Origin: a virus
Length of the DNA stretch: 21,898 nt
Virus record (IMG/VR): IMGVR_UViG_3300008055_000033
Coordinates: 1-21,898 of that record
Strand: one strand, 5' to 3'
Every line of letters begins with the position of its first letter. The first letter of the stretch is position 1. The notes under the pieces are model-generated. The model worked only from the letters and a program-made list of their open reading frames with translations, ran no database searches and was not told where the DNA came from. The position numbers were made by a program, and so were the translations under genes. Of the stretch, positions 5,399-19,012 are shown one piece after another.

Positions 5399-5653
5399 GT
5401 GTCTGTGACTCCAGAACTGATTGTAGCTGTATTATCCGGAAGCGCAGGAGCTTTTGCTGGCCTTTCAAGAGCATTGTCAAACTTCAACAAAAAAATAGAA
5501 ACACGATTTGTCGATTTAGAAAGAGAAATTGACAACTTGCAAGATCGCGTAATACAGAACTATGTTCTTAAGGAAGATTTCTTACGTGAGGTACAAGCTG
5601 TCCATTTAAAGTTAGATCGTATATTAGATCACATCTTAAATCACGGCCGCTAA
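5399..5653 (+). CDS. Small membrane plus coiled-coil protein, 84 aa (holin/spanin-like size), only plus-strand gene
   Basis: The GTG at 5399 follows a strong purine-rich ribosome binding site (GGAGAGAGAAGAAG). An overlapping ATG two bases upstream hits a stop after three codons. Residues about 7-25 (LIVAVLSGSAGAFAGL) form one hydrophobic segment. Residues about 28-80 are charged and helical (NKKIETRFVDLEREIDNLQDRV, with LKLDRILDHIL), consistent with a coiled coil. One membrane helix plus a coiled coil fits an inner-membrane spanin, an antiholin-like protein or a membrane anchor; no diagnostic motif decides. It is transcribed against all its neighbours from its own promoter and ends exactly next to the stop of the convergent 141-aa gene. 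The lysis role is inference from size, topology and the lytic-enzyme genes elsewhere in the window. Confidence 0.75.
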   Translation: MSVTPELIVAVLSGSAGAFAGLSRALSNFNKKIETRFVDLEREIDNLQDRVIQNYVLKEDFLREVQAVHLKLDRILDHILNHGR

Positions 5654-10658: not shown

Positions 10659-10936
10659 TAAAAACCCTGCGAAGGACGTTTATTTAGGACGACGGGTGGA
10701 ATGTTATCTGCTCTACTGCGAGTGACCTCGCGCATGTAAGCAGGATTGTTTAACTGAAACCTAGGATCGTCTTCCCCATTATAAGCGACAACAAAGCCAC
10801 ACTTGTTATGCTCTTCTTTACGTTTATTATTGAAGGGGTCGCTAAAACTTGAGGTCGTCAAGCTATAGTCCCGGTACATGTTCTCATAGGTAACCGGAAA
10901 AGACGGCGAGTAGCCAGGGACAGCAGCGAATCGCAT
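10658..10936 (-). CDS. Small phage protein, 92 aa, function unknown
   Basis: The ATG at 10936 shares one base with the stop of the M23-like gene (TAATG), and its own stop shares one base with the next start, so three genes are chained. It begins MRFAAVPGYSPSFPVTYENM and is rich in Tyr, Arg and Asn (YRDYSLTTSSFSDPFNNKRK, then NKCGFVVAYNG). It has one cysteine and no signal or membrane helix. No family was recognised. Coupling to the lytic-enzyme gene suggests a co-produced virion component. Confidence 0.7.
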   Translation of the reverse strand: MRFAAVPGYSPSFPVTYENMYRDYSLTTSSFSDPFNNKRKEEHNKCGFVVAYNGEDDPRFQLNNPAYMREVTRSRADNIPPVVLNKRPSQGF

Positions 10937-11625
10937 TACGCTAAATAATTTGGGGTTTGATTAAACGCACCCATCAAAAGCTGTATTAGGTTAATTGAAG
11001 ATTTAATCTCCGGCGTTCCTGAAGATAGAAGCTGCTGCATATATGTACCTAAGAAATCATCAGTACTTTGTTTCTGAGCAGTAGATGCGCCAGGGAGGAT
11101 AATAAAAGTGTCTCCCTGTCTTGTTTGTTGCGGAGTTGATTGAGTCGTTGCAGGTTGAGGTGTGATTTGCGGTGTGGTTTGTTCTGACGTCTTACCGCCG
11201 ACAGTATGGAGTAAACGGACTTCGTAGGGAGTACCCTGAGCATCAGTTGTTTTGATGCTGCCATAACCACGGCCAGGGGTAAAAGTTCCGGGACCTTCCC
11301 ATGCCAATTGTGTTCCTCCAGCAACACCATAATCGTGCCCTAAGTGAAACGTCGACGCACCTTTAGTGGGTGCAGCACGCTTACCGTAACCAGACGTAAT
11401 CGTATACGCAGGATTCCATTGTTCACCTTGCTGCTGCCACAAAGCTTTACGTTCTTTTCCTACTTTTAAACGAGTTAGCAAAGAACGGATTGTACCAGGA
11501 TCGATATATTGCCCGTCTTTCAAGACACGTACATCTAAGTGCGGTCCTGTAGTTGGAAAAATATCTTCACCTGGATTTGCAACATAACCGACGTCTAAAT
11601 AGCCCTGCGTATCCGATTTAGCCAT
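10936..11625 (-). CDS. M23-like peptidoglycan endopeptidase with permuted motifs and C-terminal shared module, 229 aa
   Basis: Residues 22-50 (TTGPHLDVRVLKDGQYIDPG) look like the end of a LytM/M23 domain, normally TGPHLHFEVRxxGxxxDP. Residues 78-142 look like its beginning and middle: SGYGKRAAPTKG, STFHLGHDYGVAGGTQL, RGYGSIK, and LLHT. The motifs are thus in circularly permuted order. His94 and Asp98 fit the HxxxD zinc motif and His140 the third motif, but the usual HxH is His29-Leu-Asp31. A Gln/Thr/Pro-rich linker (about 144-171) leads to a C-terminal module (172-229) shared with the next lytic gene. It likely cleaves peptide cross-links as a virion-borne or lysis enzyme, but activity is not certain given the changed residue. 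It starts 9 nt after the stop of the transglycosylase gene. Confidence 0.7.
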   Translation of the reverse strand: MAKSDTQGYLDVGYVANPGEDIFPTTGPHLDVRVLKDGQYIDPGTIRSLLTRLKVGKERKALWQQQGEQWNPAYTITSGYGKRAAPTKGASTFHLGHDYGVAGGTQLAWEGPGTFTPGRGYGSIKTTDAQGTPYEVRLLHTVGGKTSEQTTPQITPQPATTQSTPQQTRQGDTFIILPGASTAQKQSTDDFLGTYMQQLLSSGTPEIKSSINLIQLLMGAFNQTPNYLA

Positions 11626-11634
11626 GGCAAGTGT

Positions 11635-12231
11635 TTAATATTGTGGTGCTTGGTCTAGGCCAAAGGCTTTGGTCAATAATGCGATGGACTCAAGACCTGG
11701 CGATATTTTTGGAGTCTCTGGATTGAGAATATTCTTTAAGATGAATCTATCTAAATTCTCTTTGGGATCGATCTGTGGCGGCATCCCCCCAAACAGAATA
11801 AAAGTGCGCCCACCAGGAGCGGCTGCTGTATCCTGCGTGGGTTGCTGTGTAGCCGCTTGGGCAGTTTGTGTAGCCTGTGCAGCTTGTTGTGCTTGTGGCA
11901 GAAAATCCTTATACTTACCACTCTTATAAACTGACCAAGCGCCTAAACCTTGGCTACCTAAAATTTGTTTTGCAGCCTTAACGTTTGTCTCTGGATCAAA
12001 AAGTTGCTCTTCTTTTTGGAGACCAAACTGTTTCATGCGTGCGGGGCCTAACCCACCGTACATGTTGACTTGAAACAGTCCATAGGATTTGTCAAGCCCA
12101 GTAGGATTAAAAGCTTTCGCGCGGCCACCAGATTCTGCCATCGCAATAGCAGTCATCGTCGGGATCTTATCTTGTGGGAATCCCTGTTGCTGAAGAAGGG
12201 ATGCGATTTGTTGTGGGTTGAGCTGGGACAT
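11635..12231 (-). CDS. Lytic transglycosylase-like muralytic enzyme with C-terminal shared module, 198 aa
   Basis: From ATG 12231 the protein has a lysozyme/SLT-like core: IAMAESGG (Glu33 the likely catalytic acid), SYGLFQVNM (49-57), a D-P-E-TNVKAAKQILG helix (about 79-92) and WSVYKSGKY, the usual order of the family. A Gln/Ala/Thr-rich linker (about 113-140) leads to a C-terminal module (TFILFGG ... LTKAFGLDQAPQY) shared with the following M23-like protein. It probably cuts glycan strands during DNA entry or lysis. The frame is also open back to ATG 12390, giving an N-terminus with a hydrophobic stretch and an SADA-K site like a signal peptide, but that start would overlap the upstream gene by 137 nt and lacks a ribosome binding site, so I prefer 12231. 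Confidence 0.8.
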   Translation of the reverse strand: MSQLNPQQIASLLQQQGFPQDKIPTMTAIAMAESGGRAKAFNPTGLDKSYGLFQVNMYGGLGPARMKQFGLQKEEQLFDPETNVKAAKQILGSQGLGAWSVYKSGKYKDFLPQAQQAAQATQTAQAATQQPTQDTAAAPGGRTFILFGGMPPQIDPKENLDRFILKNILNPETPKISPGLESIALLTKAFGLDQAPQY

Positions 12232-12253
12232 GACAGAACTGGACTGTTTGGCG

Positions 12254-12733
12254 TCAGCGGAAGTCGGTTGAGAGCATAAGGCGAGTGCCAACAGCGACGT
12301 CGGCAGGGCCTGGAAGGGCTTGAATAAATTCAGCACCTTCCCGATTAAACCGATACCGGGCTTGTTCGGGATTTCGGTAATTGGGGACATAAAGATGTAG
12401 GGCTAATCGATCCGTCTCGTATATGTAAATTGCCGTCCAGGTTTTCAGCGTGTCTCTAAAATCAGAGGTTGCAATCGTACGATCGACGTCACCGGCTATA
12501 CTTTCGATACGACTCCTGGGAACAGTATTGTTGTTCACACTTCCAGTCATGTCAGTGCGCTTTTCAGCTTCATCGCACCGACTGACTTGTTCGACAATTT
12601 TTGAATACCAGAACGAATCTGGGATGTTGTTGACAGCTTCTTCAAGACGCGCTAAATCACCTGCCGGAATAGACGTGGTGTTGTAACCAAGATGCCAGCG
12701 AACTTTAGACTTGAGGAAGGTATCGAGTTGCAT
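12254..12733 (-). CDS. Putative head-tail connector / neck protein, 159 aa
   Basis: It begins MQLDTFLKSKVRWHLGYNT and is mostly helical (IPAGDLARLEEAVNNIPDSF, SKIVEQVSRCDEAEKR). The C-terminus has YVPNYRNPEQARYRFNREGA, FIQALPGPADVAVG. From memory, proteins with VRWHLGYN...IPAGDxARLEEA and PNYRxPxxARYRFxRxGxEFIxAL are conserved in cyanophage structural regions. Placement after the capsid genes, length and helical character fit an adaptor that joins the portal to the tail, but no decisive motif is visible. A 7-bp inverted repeat (TACTCAA at 12734-12740, TTGAGTA at 12754-12760) lies directly upstream. Confidence 0.6.
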   Translation of the reverse strand: MQLDTFLKSKVRWHLGYNTTSIPAGDLARLEEAVNNIPDSFWYSKIVEQVSRCDEAEKRTDMTGSVNNNTVPRSRIESIAGDVDRTIATSDFRDTLKTWTAIYIYETDRLALHLYVPNYRNPEQARYRFNREGAEFIQALPGPADVAVGTRLMLSTDFR

Positions 12734-13328: not shown

Positions 13329-13350
13329 TCGTTGCTTCTTGGAGTTACAA

Positions 13351-14169
13351 TCAGATGTCGTCGCCGCCCACTTGAGAGGCGAAGTCGATGTACTCGTTGA
13401 TCGTTTCCCAGCCAGCGGCGGCGGCAGGGCGGATGTAATTCACGCGGCACACCAGGTAGCCAGCCTTGCCAGCATCCTTGTCAGCCTGACTGATGAACAC
13501 ACCGTCGCCATCCACGGTGGTAGAGGTCACGCCGTTGACGTTGAACACCTTGAAGGTGGTGTCAGCGGTGACGCGATAGAACATCGAGTTGGCAAAGTCA
13601 GCCGCCACGATGCCCGCAGTAGTCACGCCACTGGTGAAGGGCAGATCTGCAACTGCGGTGTCGCTCAGACCCTGAGCAAACAGGCTGCTGGTAGCAGACA
13701 CAATCGCGCTAGCAGCGGCCAGACCATTGGCCTGAGACGAAGGCACGCCGAAGGGAACGCCAGCGTTATTGGGGCCGAGCAGCAGACCCTCAGTGCTGGT
13801 ACCGCCGATGTCGGCGGTCACAGGAGATGCAGGGAAGCCAGCCAGTCCACCAGAGGGCAGGTCCTGAGCCACAGCAATAGAAGCACCGTAGACATAAGCA
13901 GGACGAGCTGCGCTAGCTTGCACCACAAGAGAGGTGCGGTTGTCACGCACGCGATCGTCAGGACGACGATCAGGCGAGGGGACAATGATGTCGAAGCTCT
14001 TGAAGTTAGCCTTGTCAGCAGCGAGATTATCGATCTTGACAAAGCCGATCAACTCGTAAGCTTCTACGCCAGGCCAAGCATAAACACCTTCAGTGTTGTA
14101 CGAGGAGAGGCGGTTGATTTGGTTACCGGGTTGCAGAATTGCACCGGCTTCTTCTTTATAAGTAGCCAT
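13351..14169 (-). CDS. Second abundant head protein (decoration / capsid-associated), 272 aa
   Basis: The ATG at 14169 is preceded by AAGGAGGT, one of the strongest ribosome binding sites in the window. The protein starts MATYKEEAGAILQPGNQINR and is rich in Ala, Gly, Val and Thr, with few Cys or Trp, as in abundant phage shell proteins (LAAASAIVSATSSLFAQGLS, FYRVTADTTFKVFNVNG). It lies 18 nt after the major capsid gene and just before a terminator. Codon use is distinctly more GC-ending than in the fibre genes, as in the capsid gene, consistent with high expression. No family signature identifies it; a decoration or stabilising protein is most likely, and a tail-tube protein is an alternative. 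Confidence 0.7.
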   Translation of the reverse strand: MATYKEEAGAILQPGNQINRLSSYNTEGVYAWPGVEAYELIGFVKIDNLAADKANFKSFDIIVPSPDRRPDDRVRDNRTSLVVQASAARPAYVYGASIAVAQDLPSGGLAGFPASPVTADIGGTSTEGLLLGPNNAGVPFGVPSSQANGLAAASAIVSATSSLFAQGLSDTAVADLPFTSGVTTAGIVAADFANSMFYRVTADTTFKVFNVNGVTSTTVDGDGVFISQADKDAGKAGYLVCRVNYIRPAAAAGWETINEYIDFASQVGGDDI

Positions 14170-14187
14170 TTGTTAAGTACCTCCTTA

Positions 14188-15333
14188 TCACTCAACGATA
14201 GTGAAAGCAGTGGTAATGAAGTCCTTATTCAGGTTGGCGAAGCCAGCGTACAACTGCCAAATCAGAATGATAAAGCGGCTGAAATCATCATTGTTATTGA
14301 TGAGCACCTGAGCGTTAGGACCACCAATGCCCACACCCACTGCCTGAGGACCGAAGAACAGACCAGCAGGAGTAGTACGGGTTGCAGCGCCGCCGCCACT
14401 GCCAATGTCGACGGAGATACTCTTATCGGGGAAGTTGGTGGACTCGAAGAAGCGCACACCTTCAAACACGAAGCCAGAAGGCATTACAGGTTCACCGGCC
14501 ACAAACTGAGCTTGACCGAACTGACCACCGCCATACAGAGCGGCGTTAGGTGCCATCATTCCCATCAGCGGGTTGGGAGCACCAGTGCCGGGATAACGGG
14601 CCACTTCACGGAAGCCCTGATCAGCACGCAGGTCCTTCATGAAAGAAGGATCGGCAATACAACGGTAGTAGCCGTCAGCAAACACAGGGGTGTTACGCTT
14701 ACGCAGCTGCTTCACAACTTCAAGCAAGTCAGTCTTGACGTTAAACTTGAAGCGCTCGGAAGCGTACTCAGTAGCGGTATAGCTGTTAAGTACAGTTGCG
14801 GAAGACTTGGTCTTACCGTTGGGGAAGTAGTAACCACCCTGACTGTCAGACGCGGCGCCACGAGACTCAGCTTTAAACAGCTCGTCCAGGAACACACGAT
14901 CGCGCCAGCGGCGATAGTCGTCCAGCAGAGTCAGCGAACCGATGGACTGGTGGAACATGTTGAGGTTCCCGGTGTCCAGCAGCAGACGCTGAGCGGTCAT
15001 CAGAGTCTCACGAGCGATCTTAAAGGTGCTCGGGAGATTAGTATTGTTCGGGTCGGCAGGACCAGTGTACTCACGCAGAGACACCAGCACCTTATCCTTC
15101 ACGATCGACCGGCTGTTAGCGGTACCGATGGTTTGATCCTGGGTACGCTCACGGCTAGTCTTCGTTCCAGGGCTGCCCCAGAAACGATAGCGGTCGAGTT
15201 GAACGGTTTGACCCGGCTGTTTGGTGAAGTCGTGGACTACAACTGGCTCGCAAGCCATTTCCACGATGTAAGCTGGATGGGGGCGGTACAGCTCCGCACC
15301 CAACAGCTTGGGAAAGTCGTTATCAATAAACAT
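14188..15333 (-). CDS. Major capsid protein, 381 aa
   Basis: The protein begins MFIDNDFPKLLGAELYRPHP and contains GQTVQLDRYRFWGSPGTKTS, TQDQTIGTANSRSIVKDKVL, and RYRCIADP-type and SFMKDLRADQGFREVARYPG segments. Its length, position after portal and scaffold, and the N-terminal arm followed by helix-rich and beta-rich parts (LLDDYRRWRDRVFLDELFK) fit an HK97-fold coat protein of the type annotated in cyanophages. GC-ending, restricted codon use and a dedicated promoter with a hairpin-rich leader point to high expression. It is followed by the 272-aa head protein in the same transcript. It would assemble on the scaffold encoded upstream and be filled by the terminase. I cannot name the precise subfamily. 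Confidence 0.88.
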   Translation of the reverse strand: MFIDNDFPKLLGAELYRPHPAYIVEMACEPVVVHDFTKQPGQTVQLDRYRFWGSPGTKTSRERTQDQTIGTANSRSIVKDKVLVSLREYTGPADPNNTNLPSTFKIARETLMTAQRLLLDTGNLNMFHQSIGSLTLLDDYRRWRDRVFLDELFKAESRGAASDSQGGYYFPNGKTKSSATVLNSYTATEYASERFKFNVKTDLLEVVKQLRKRNTPVFADGYYRCIADPSFMKDLRADQGFREVARYPGTGAPNPLMGMMAPNAALYGGGQFGQAQFVAGEPVMPSGFVFEGVRFFESTNFPDKSISVDIGSGGGAATRTTPAGLFFGPQAVGVGIGGPNAQVLINNNDDFSRFIILIWQLYAGFANLNKDFITTAFTIVE

Positions 15334-15365
15334 GTTGGTTTCTCAGCGTAGGGTAAGCTGATACC

Positions 15366-16261: not shown

Positions 16262-17260
16262 TCAGTCCATCACAAGCATTTTCTGACGGAATACATCAGG
16301 GTTCTGTTGTGCAGAGTTCAGATAGCGCCAAGCATTGGCGGGATCCCGCTCAGCCAGGGCTCCAAAGTTGTTCCAGAAGGCGGCTGGATTGCCTTGAGCT
16401 TGCGGCTGAGGGGGCACGGGCATCTGAGGGCGCTCAGGAGCAACTGGACGTTGATACTGAGTGCCAACAACTTGACCTTGCGGACGACCGTATCCAATCT
16501 CCGAATCGGGGATTGGGTAAGGACCGTTCTCTCCGAAGAACTCACAGGTATAATCGGCAAGAATATCGGGATCTGTAAGAATAGCCTCGTAAGCGCGGTG
16601 CTCATAAGAAAGTTCTTGAAGCAGACCGATGGCTTCCTGGAGCTGATTGTTCGTGAGGATCAGTTGATCTTCGACGGCACAAGAGTACTCGTTAAGGAGC
16701 GCAGGAGCATCGGCTCCAAAGTGATTGATAACATCAAGACTTTGCTCGCTTACCCCGTTGTCCAGCAGCATTTCCTCCGTTATTACCGGAGAAGTTTGGG
16801 AATAGTCGTTGTAATACGCCTGGCTGCTGTTGTTCGAAGGCGTATAGGTCTCCGTCGCCGTATTGCTGTACTGGAGACCCTGTTGGGAACCGTAATTGGC
16901 CTGCTCGTAAGCCTGGTTCTGACTGTACTGTTGACCCTGGAATGGGAATTGGACGGGCGAACTCAGGAGCCCCACTACCTTGTTGAACGCCTCCTTGTAA
17001 GGGTTCTCCGCTTGTGGGGGCGCCTGGTACGCTTGGGGGTATGACGCTGTAGGGGTTGACAGGTACGGGTTGACCCCCATCTGGGCCTGCATTTGCGGGG
17101 CTGGGGCCACCGCTTGCTGGTAAGGCGCCACCCATTGGGACGTCGTTGAAACCGCTGGCGCTTGTGCCGCCGTCTGCGCCACCGGAGCCCCGTAGCTGCT
17201 CGGCTGGATCGGGGATACTTGGGGTGCCGATTGGGTCGGCATTGCGGTATCGGCCTGCAT
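16262..17260 (-). CDS. Capsid assembly scaffold protein, 332 aa, overprinting the portal C-terminus
   Basis: The ATG at 17260 is preceded by AAAGAGGTAACTT, a good ribosome binding site. The N-terminal half is Pro/Gln/Ala/Tyr-rich and disordered; residues about 86-100 (NPYKEAFNKVVGLLSS) and about 160-262 are helical (SLDVINHFGADAPALLNEYS, QEAIGLLQELSYEHRAYEAI, DILADYTCEFFGENGPYP), as in scaffolds of aquatic phages recalled from memory. The C-terminus (FWNNFGALAERDPANAWRYL) may be the capsid-binding end. Position between portal and capsid supports the call. The first 527 nt also encode the portal C-terminus in the preceding frame, so both proteins are translated from the same DNA. A terminator-like hairpin follows. 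Confidence 0.82.
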   Translation of the reverse strand: MQADTAMPTQSAPQVSPIQPSSYGAPVAQTAAQAPAVSTTSQWVAPYQQAVAPAPQMQAQMGVNPYLSTPTASYPQAYQAPPQAENPYKEAFNKVVGLLSSPVQFPFQGQQYSQNQAYEQANYGSQQGLQYSNTATETYTPSNNSSQAYYNDYSQTSPVITEEMLLDNGVSEQSLDVINHFGADAPALLNEYSCAVEDQLILTNNQLQEAIGLLQELSYEHRAYEAILTDPDILADYTCEFFGENGPYPIPDSEIGYGRPQGQVVGTQYQRPVAPERPQMPVPPQPQAQGNPAAFWNNFGALAERDPANAWRYLNSAQQNPDVFRQKMLVMD

Positions 17261-18992
17261 AAGTTACCTCTTTTTGTAGGCTTTCGAGTGTTCGGTAAAG
17301 GAAGGGAGTGAGATCTAATCTCGGATCCGCAGCCATCGGTAAATTCGGTTGCTGCGGATGTGGTGTTCGCATTTCTTGATTGATTAAATCAATAAATGCT
17401 GAGTAGGCCCTCTGTACTTCCCCTACCATTCGGAATGGGAAACCGGAGAGCATTCCCGCGATTTCATCATCCGTTTTAGAAGGGAATAAATACTTCAGTG
17501 CTTCAATGCTATCAACCCCTAATTCCTGTAGGTTCCTGGTGAAGATAGATTGATTGAGTTTATCTTGGGCTGTGTCTTCATACACAGGACCCATCCAGCG
17601 CCACAAAACAGTGCGGTCACCATCTGGGGCAAGCCCAAGAACGCCAGTAGGAATTTCACGCGTTTCAATAACAGCATCTAGCGCTTTTTGTAGCTTCTTC
17701 TCATAACTTACTAACTGCTTTTCGTACTTAGCTACAGCGGCTTCATCCTCAACATCTTCGGGAGGGACAGGGTACTTAATGCCCAATGAGTAAGCTAAAG
17801 ATTTACGGAAGATTTGCTCTTCCTGAAAAATCATCAGCTCAAAACAACGGCAAATGCCGTATGTATAAAGCATCAGACATTTCTTTTTAGCTGTAGCACT
17901 AACACGGCCATAAGCAGATTTGATTTCAGTTGCAGTGACGTTAGTGATGCTTAAATCGTCAATACCACCAAGTGCTAAGCGGATTTCACTACGAAGCTGT
18001 TCAGCATAACGCGCTTGGTCGGTGCTAACGGCGTTTGGAGTGATAAAGCCGACACGATCTGTCGGCTCCAGGTTTGCGATAACCCTAGGCACACGCATGC
18101 CAGATCCAGGTTTTCCAATGTACCCAGGAGGTTGGCGTGTTACGTTATCTTGCTTAAATGTTGAACTAGATAAAAAGAATTCAGATTGGAATCCAGATTG
18201 ACTAGAGATGCTGGGCCGTTGGGCTACATCTGTATCAGTGCTCTCGATAATATCCTGCTTTGGCCTAGAGGAAAGCAGCGTAGGATTACCAAAAAATGAG
18301 AGATTCGCCCGGATATTTTTAACCATTTCATCGTGAGCGATGATCTGGTTAGCCATCCAATCAAACTCACCACTGCCCTCCGTACCAAAAGCATCTGGAT
18401 TGTTAAAAACTTCCACACACGGAATAAATTCCATGCTGTTGACAACCGTCTTTTTCTCCAGGGCACCGGTCTCTAACGAAGGCATATCAAAAGAGATTTC
18501 TTGCTCGCTATGAAACTCTTCGATTTCAGTTGCCGTAATACGAAGGCGCATGTAGCGCTTATCTGTGCTTAGGCCGACGCCCTGGAAGCCTTTTGTGGAC
18601 TTTACCTTGTACGGATAGATGATAATGACTTCTTCTAAATCACCTTCTGGTGAGTAGTAGGTCCGATATGCGTCTTTATCAAACCAATAAAGCCGATATG
18701 TTTTCTTAGTCGGACGAATGTAGAAAAGTCCTCTACCATAGGCCAAAAAACGATCCCAAATGGAATCCAGGCGAGCATCTAGTTTATTAAATTTGATGAC
18801 TTGCTGGATAAAATCAAATCGCTGTGTGCCTAGGTTGTCTTGAGAAGGGAAAAATTCAACGCCCTGACGCACCCCAAACATCTTCATCTGGGAAAGGTGG
18901 GCATTCACCAGCATGGTGTCGGTTTGATCGCCACCATCGCGGGTAATGACCGCCTTGAGCATAGAATCTAGGACGCTTTTACTATCGCTCAT
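16734..18992 (-). CDS. Portal protein, 752 aa, with C-terminal extension overlapping the scaffold gene
   Basis: Start ATG 18992 (MSDSKSVLDSMLKAVITRDG); a TTG two codons earlier is possible. The body has portal-type features: helical N-terminus (FDFIQQVIKFNKLDARLDSI), LAYGRGLFYIRP, WFDKDAYRTYY, then NQIIAHDEMVKNIRANLSFF and GNPTLLSS, the TEIKSAYGRV region and long helices near the middle. Length and place between large terminase and scaffold agree. The last ~175 residues are Gly/Pro/Gln-rich (GGALPASGGPSPANAGPDGG) and end in LQRLFPNFSGNNGG and a basic GQRGKRAKS tail; they are read from DNA that also encodes the scaffold N-terminus in the next frame. The portal forms the ring through which DNA is packaged by the terminase. 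Confidence 0.88.
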   Translation of the reverse strand: MSDSKSVLDSMLKAVITRDGGDQTDTMLVNAHLSQMKMFGVRQGVEFFPSQDNLGTQRFDFIQQVIKFNKLDARLDSIWDRFLAYGRGLFYIRPTKKTYRLYWFDKDAYRTYYSPEGDLEEVIIIYPYKVKSTKGFQGVGLSTDKRYMRLRITATEIEEFHSEQEISFDMPSLETGALEKKTVVNSMEFIPCVEVFNNPDAFGTEGSGEFDWMANQIIAHDEMVKNIRANLSFFGNPTLLSSRPKQDIIESTDTDVAQRPSISSQSGFQSEFFLSSSTFKQDNVTRQPPGYIGKPGSGMRVPRVIANLEPTDRVGFITPNAVSTDQARYAEQLRSEIRLALGGIDDLSITNVTATEIKSAYGRVSATAKKKCLMLYTYGICRCFELMIFQEEQIFRKSLAYSLGIKYPVPPEDVEDEAAVAKYEKQLVSYEKKLQKALDAVIETREIPTGVLGLAPDGDRTVLWRWMGPVYEDTAQDKLNQSIFTRNLQELGVDSIEALKYLFPSKTDDEIAGMLSGFPFRMVGEVQRAYSAFIDLINQEMRTPHPQQPNLPMAADPRLDLTPFLYRTLESLQKEVTYAGRYRNADPIGTPSIPDPAEQLRGSGGADGGTSASGFNDVPMGGALPASGGPSPANAGPDGGQPVPVNPYSVIPPSVPGAPTSGEPLQGGVQQGSGAPEFARPIPIPGSTVQSEPGLRAGQLRFPTGSPVQQYGDGDLYAFEQQQPGVLQRLFPNFSGNNGGNAAGQRGKRAKS

Positions 18993-19012
18993 GGTCAATT
19001 GTTGAATTCAGC

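Follow-up and report, generated by a model that had tools for sequence, protein, structure and literature searches.

The question raised by this locus is whether a protein in which the motifs of an M23 metallopeptidase stand in an unusual order, with one of the expected zinc ligands exchanged, is an M23-type enzyme, and what such an enzyme might do for a virus. The protein is encoded in a viral record of 21,898 bases (the window), which also contains terminase, portal-like and major-head genes. In M23 enzymes, the metal is held by an HxxxD motif and the second His of an HxH motif, and activation of water falls to the first HxH His and to another His (PMC9662197). Canonical domains present these elements in the order HxxxD ... 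His ... HxH, whereas in the window protein the order is HLD ... HxxxD ... His. A preliminary description of this DNA had interpreted the arrangement as a circular permutation of an M23/LytM domain, in which HxxxD is kept and HxH has become His-Leu-Asp. Its placement of the 229-residue open reading frame (ORF), and every motif and residue number, proved correct on re-reading of the sequence: T26-G-P-H29-L-D31-V-R33, D42-P43, S78-GYGKR83, H94-LGH-D98-YG, G120-Y-G122 and L138-L-H140. The parts of the gene are as follows (TMP, tape measure protein).

10936..11625, minus strand: permuted M23 peptidase gene, 229 amino acids (ORF and relatives; AlphaFold2 pLDDT)
11488..11601, minus strand: residues 9–46, N-terminal here, matching the C-terminal end of canonical M23 (IG..G.TG.STGPHLHFEV..G..VDP; hhalign, canonical columns 113–157, E 3.6e-8)
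11527..11550, minus strand: TGPHLDVR, residues 26–33; His29 corresponds to the first His of HxH, and Asp31 stands in place of the zinc-ligand second His (conservation in 117 domains)
11410..11487, minus strand: residues 47–72, new linker between the former C- and N-termini (length differs between cyanophage and TMP groups; in the re-permuted alignment with canonical M23, at or outside the ends)
11200..11409, minus strand: residues 73–142, matching the first two thirds of canonical M23 (ISS.FG.R ... HxxxD ... Y-A-H; hhalign, canonical columns 41–111, E 1.4e-9; a relative's model, 45–138, on lysostaphin 252–340)
11332..11346, minus strand: HxxxD zinc motif, His94 and Asp98 (both 117/117)
11206..11214, minus strand: LLH, residues 138–140; His140 is equivalent to LytM His260 (117/117; role of this His: PMC9662197)

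Homology of the permuted domain to M23

Profiling of each half separately, as the preliminary description had proposed, gives the two hhalign matches listed above. The exchange of segments can also be seen from the opposite direction. A small profile built from four permuted domains was run against those loci in genomes of the order that carry canonical M23s. All 28 canonical sequences, each with an intact HxH, were matched as two pieces in swapped order, with model positions ~41–119 first and ~2–31 downstream. The first pieces have i-E values of ~1e-8 to 1e-10; the second pieces are weak singly (mostly 0.1–5, three at 25–79), yet are placed at the TGPHLH site. The family profile behaves likewise on a protein of known structure, NMB0315 (PDB 3slu; E 1e-8), where profile positions 69–137 fall at 226–296 and 6–42 at 310–342, again swapped. 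Searching the PDB by phmmer with the single window protein gave no match.

A further test consisted of cutting the family after residue 55, re-joining the ends, and aligning the result by hhalign with an alignment of canonical M23 domains. As encoded, the permuted family scores 82.8 over 84 columns; re-permuted, it scores 122.4 over 123 columns (E 3.4e-20). For the cyanophage rows alone, the score rises from 56.9 over 68 columns to 89.8 over 108, while the cyanophage alignment with its columns shuffled scores 11–17 in three controls. In the re-permuted alignment, Asp31 falls on the second His of HxH. Re-permutation also extends the match of Pfam PF01551 to the related domains in phage TMPs, from 2–54 of 96 positions (21.3 bits) to 2–85 (25.0 bits) in Acinetobacter and from 2–52 to 2–86 in Moraxella. 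Both stay below the Pfam M23 gathering score (28.7 bits) even when re-permuted. For the window protein, Pfam M23 gave no match, whether whole, as halves or re-permuted; it takes the closer TMP domain for the Pfam test to work.

Structure prediction followed by Foldseek had been proposed as a check in the preliminary description. The AlphaFold2 model of the window protein (66 sequences) is confident in both halves, with block-mean pLDDT values of 91–98 over residues 11–140 (~96–98 for the greater part of this range) and mostly low values in the tail. Neither Foldseek against PDB and BFVD nor VIA-align matched this model to an M23 structure, possibly because sequential aligners may fail on a permuted fold. 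LecB-type lectins were rejected as a match, since their Z of ~4 lies under the tool's meaningful level. The best BFVD row, A0A0R6PJE2 (prob 0.99, 33% identity), may be a relative.

The Acinetobacter TMP domain (P0002) gave a model with pTM 0.83. Among PDB entries, lysostaphin matches this model best (4qpb; Foldseek prob 0.94 at 33% identity, but E 0.23), and the top VIA ranks are all M23 structures (4qpb, Z 5.5; 4lxc, 5.1; 6ue4, 4.6; 2gu1, 4.3). Residues 45–138 superpose on lysostaphin chain positions 252–340 (rmsd 3.0, 87 residues), and the alignment stops before the HxH strand, which is the pattern expected of a permuted domain. As the Z values lie below 8, they back the sequence result rather than prove it. 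The permuted protein would form a LAS-type sheet in which residues 22–50 supply the last M23 strand and the ligands converge.

The profile tests, with this partial match of a relative's model to lysostaphin, support the earlier proposal of a true circular permutation, and judged by profile comparison the whole permuted domain is homologous to M23. Compared with PF01551 members (lysostaphin, LytM, MepM, ShyA, NMB0315), the window protein retains HxxxD, the first HxH His and the third catalytic His (His140, which comes after HxH owing to the permutation), together with the FG.R, GYG and TGPHL landmarks. It differs in its permuted segments, the Asp in place of the second HxH His, the new linker, the missing V..GD.V..GQ loop, and the lack of a Pfam match above the gathering cut-off. 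Strict tests of motif order and HxH set it apart from ordinary M23 members, yet its homology spans the whole domain.

Relatives, conservation and the metal site

The window virus is related to S-EIV1, a cyanophage of fresh water, and AHV82231.1 of that phage ('peptidase M23 family') is a permuted orthologue, 48% identical over 140 residues. The record of AHV82231.1 annotates it as plain M23 and leaves the permutation unmentioned. Its C-terminal tail differs from that of the window protein, and no SLT gene was recognised adjoining it. A scan of viral contigs gave 23 relatives; a later one gave more than 500, and the 80 best were retained. What the preliminary description had treated as a single protein is a whole family. 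S-EIV1-like cyanophages have it as a stand-alone gene; in Acinetobacter phages (for example, Ab105-2phi) and Moraxella Mcat phages it is a domain within the TMPs (PHROG 1506, 3519). The TMP relatives share the HLD, but their domain sits in a long chain (~900–1700 residues) and retains the canonical IG.SG.SG lead-in. The permuted form is also found in Acinetobacter genomes and in two more genomes of the same order (L274 and L306, both with HLD). A query of genome contigs with the TMP domain gave the permuted form from Acinetobacter alone, and among 398 genomes sampled across the phylum (E 1e-13) no permuted domain was found beyond the known Acinetobacter genome. One locus picked up by an HLH pattern (L303) was rejected as it is no relative of the family.

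Thirteen residues are invariant in 117 distinct domains: T26, H29, L30, S78, G81, R83, P86, A90, H94, D98, L138, L139 and H140. These relatives keep the permuted order as well, which places the order beyond chance. The gene is not an assembly artefact, because it is carried by many independent metagenome contigs, by the isolate S-EIV1 and by isolate prophages. Values of dN/dS (0.09 for the window against L002, 0.03–0.20 in other measurable pairs) show that the domain is under clear purifying selection.

The change of HxH to His-Leu-Asp noted in the preliminary description is a family trait: position 31 is Asp in 115 of the 117 domains and His in two (codons GAT and CAT), although this frequency is biased and the Asp share perhaps inflated, as the pattern of some searches contained HLD. 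The scan that yielded the His variants, that with 23 viral relatives, was run without the HLD motif. Both variants are cyanophage permuted enzymes (L007:2954–3631 and L008:5001–5678) with the canonical HLH, in the form TAPHLHV rather than TGPHLDV. Zinc is commonly bound by Asp as well as by His, and their natural exchange at position 31 is as expected if this residue binds zinc. By mapping onto M23, His94, Asp98 and Asp31 are predicted metal ligands, and His29 and His140 are predicted to be catalytic. The preliminary description had regarded loss of conservation of the putative ligands among homologues as evidence against its proposal; the invariance of the four His and Asp residues outside position 31 points the other way.

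In the open-licence literature, no permuted M23, LytM, lysostaphin or metallopeptidase was found, though a description may exist elsewhere; a review of M23 enzymes (PMC9662197) contains no word starting with 'permut'. The nearest precedent is provided by permuted NlpC/P60 enzymes (YaeF/YiiX, LRAT), permuted kin of another peptidoglycan peptidase superfamily (PMC3142127, PMC6403190), although those are cysteine-type and their fold is unrelated.

Transglycosylase partner and shared tail

In the window, the peptidase gene is directly preceded by that of a transglycosylase, and the two proteins end alike.

11635..12390, minus strand: partner, SLT/lysozyme-fold transglycosylase with the same tail (PF18896 SLT_3, E 1.2e-13; PF01464 SLT, E 3.7e-8)
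10939..11115, minus strand: C-terminal tail of the peptidase, residues 171–229, also on the preceding transglycosylase; proposed anchor (67/67 loci)

When just these two proteins are compared with each other, their last ~70 residues show 33% identity over 76 columns (E 2e-7). The shared pattern, of ~60 residues, reads TFI..PG ... FL..Y ... P.i.s.i.p..LL..AF.QTPNYL. Wherever a second ORF with the tail occurs (i-E < 1e-5), it lies directly before the peptidase ORF (67 of 67 such loci). The SLT catalytic part ahead of the tail is of several types in related viruses (L001, L058, L051, L084 and others), so that, as read from these sequences, SLT modules are exchanged on a constant tail. As the catalytic part varies across loci, the tail seems to serve as a shared anchor; it is likely to be a virion anchor or targeting domain. 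The SLT gene probably starts at the ATG at 12231. An apparent signal peptide on the SLT ORF (12231–12390) was rejected, because here the ORF runs out of frame through the end of the conserved gene before it (phrog_29158). The tape measure chains of L274 and L306 each carry an SLT-like stretch (MMQES..G..YFQT, recognised by eye) after the permuted M23. An endopeptidase and a glycan-cleaving enzyme are therefore paired in both the cyanophage and TMP groups.

Other features of the window include two long ORFs on the minus strand, 16262–17260 and 16734–18998, which overlap by ~530 bases. Since the portal-like ORF matches its PHROG to the end, the overlapping 332-residue ORF probably starts later than listed. 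On the plus strand, a 670-residue open frame (13339–15351), likely a by-product of codon usage, lies antisense to the major head gene and the gene beside it. An 84-residue ORF (5399–5653, plus strand), whose neighbours lie on the other strand, has a match to phrog_462 ('lipoprotein', E 4e-9).

Proposed activity and place of action

The gene product is very probably a circularly permuted, zinc-dependent peptidoglycan endopeptidase of M23 type, with delivery by the virion, together with the transglycosylase, as a proposal. Its virion location is suggested by gene neighbourhood and by analogy with the tape-measure relatives. It is possible, though unlikely, that the active permuted enzyme instead serves as an endolysin at the end of infection. 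This would suit a small stand-alone gene that adjoins a second muralytic gene, and the TMP relatives do not prove the role of the cyanophage form. Yet the gene sits among structural genes, with head genes on one side and tail-like genes on the other, its relatives form part of TMPs, and the tail held in common with the SLT protein suggests attachment.

Rather improbable is a catalytically dead module, comparable to EnvC or NlpD, which would bind peptidoglycan or activate the neighbouring transglycosylase, and in which the change from His to Asp would mean loss of zinc. Degenerate M23 proteins are known (PMC9662197), and HxH is altered in nearly all of the domains. Such a module would, however, hardly be expected to keep H29, H94, D98 and H140 invariant across two groups that are only ~30% identical, or to admit only Asp or His, both zinc ligands, at position 31. 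Even less credence can be given to two leftover M23 fragments of tandem domains that are decaying, or that complement each other between subunits, with no permuted fold. The absence of the canonical M23 loop would fit, but both halves are modelled with high pLDDT, dN/dS is low, and the catalytic residues of both halves are all conserved together. A chance likeness of short motifs, in line with the failure of Pfam to find M23 in the window protein, is already ruled out for practical purposes by the separate matches of the halves (E 4e-8 and 1e-9) in permuted order, against the scores of the shuffled controls.

For the permuted endopeptidase, the following course may be envisaged. The starting point was probably a tandem duplication of an ancestral M23 domain ('AP..GAS..HxG.D' type), after which copy one would have lost its first part and copy two its last. 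The HxH strand would now come from the new N-terminus, whereas HxxxD and the third His would come from the new C-terminus. In the fold, the metal would be bound by His94, Asp98 and Asp31, the latter replacing LytM His293, and water would be activated by His29 and His140. The virion would bring in the peptidase and the neighbouring transglycosylase, both via the same C-terminal tail. At DNA entry into the cyanobacterium, the transglycosylase would cut glycan strands and the peptidase presumably the peptide cross-links. Most likely, the protein is a virion-carried zinc endopeptidase that opens peptidoglycan in infection.

A single M23 permutation, together with a His-to-Asp zinc-ligand swap that created a His-Asp-Asp site, has probably founded a still-active phage family that spread between stand-alone genes in freshwater cyanophages and the TMPs of Moraxellaceae phages. 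Few cell-wall hydrolases have been studied as much as the M23 enzymes (lysostaphin and its kin), which also have antimicrobial use. A natural permuted form with a different metal site implies that the fold tolerates new termini, and the natural Asp/His pair offers a means to test the requirements on the third zinc ligand. The permutation also explains why profile and structure searches overlook these lysins in phage tail proteins; with its recognition, the permuted-domain content of tape measure proteins becomes annotatable.
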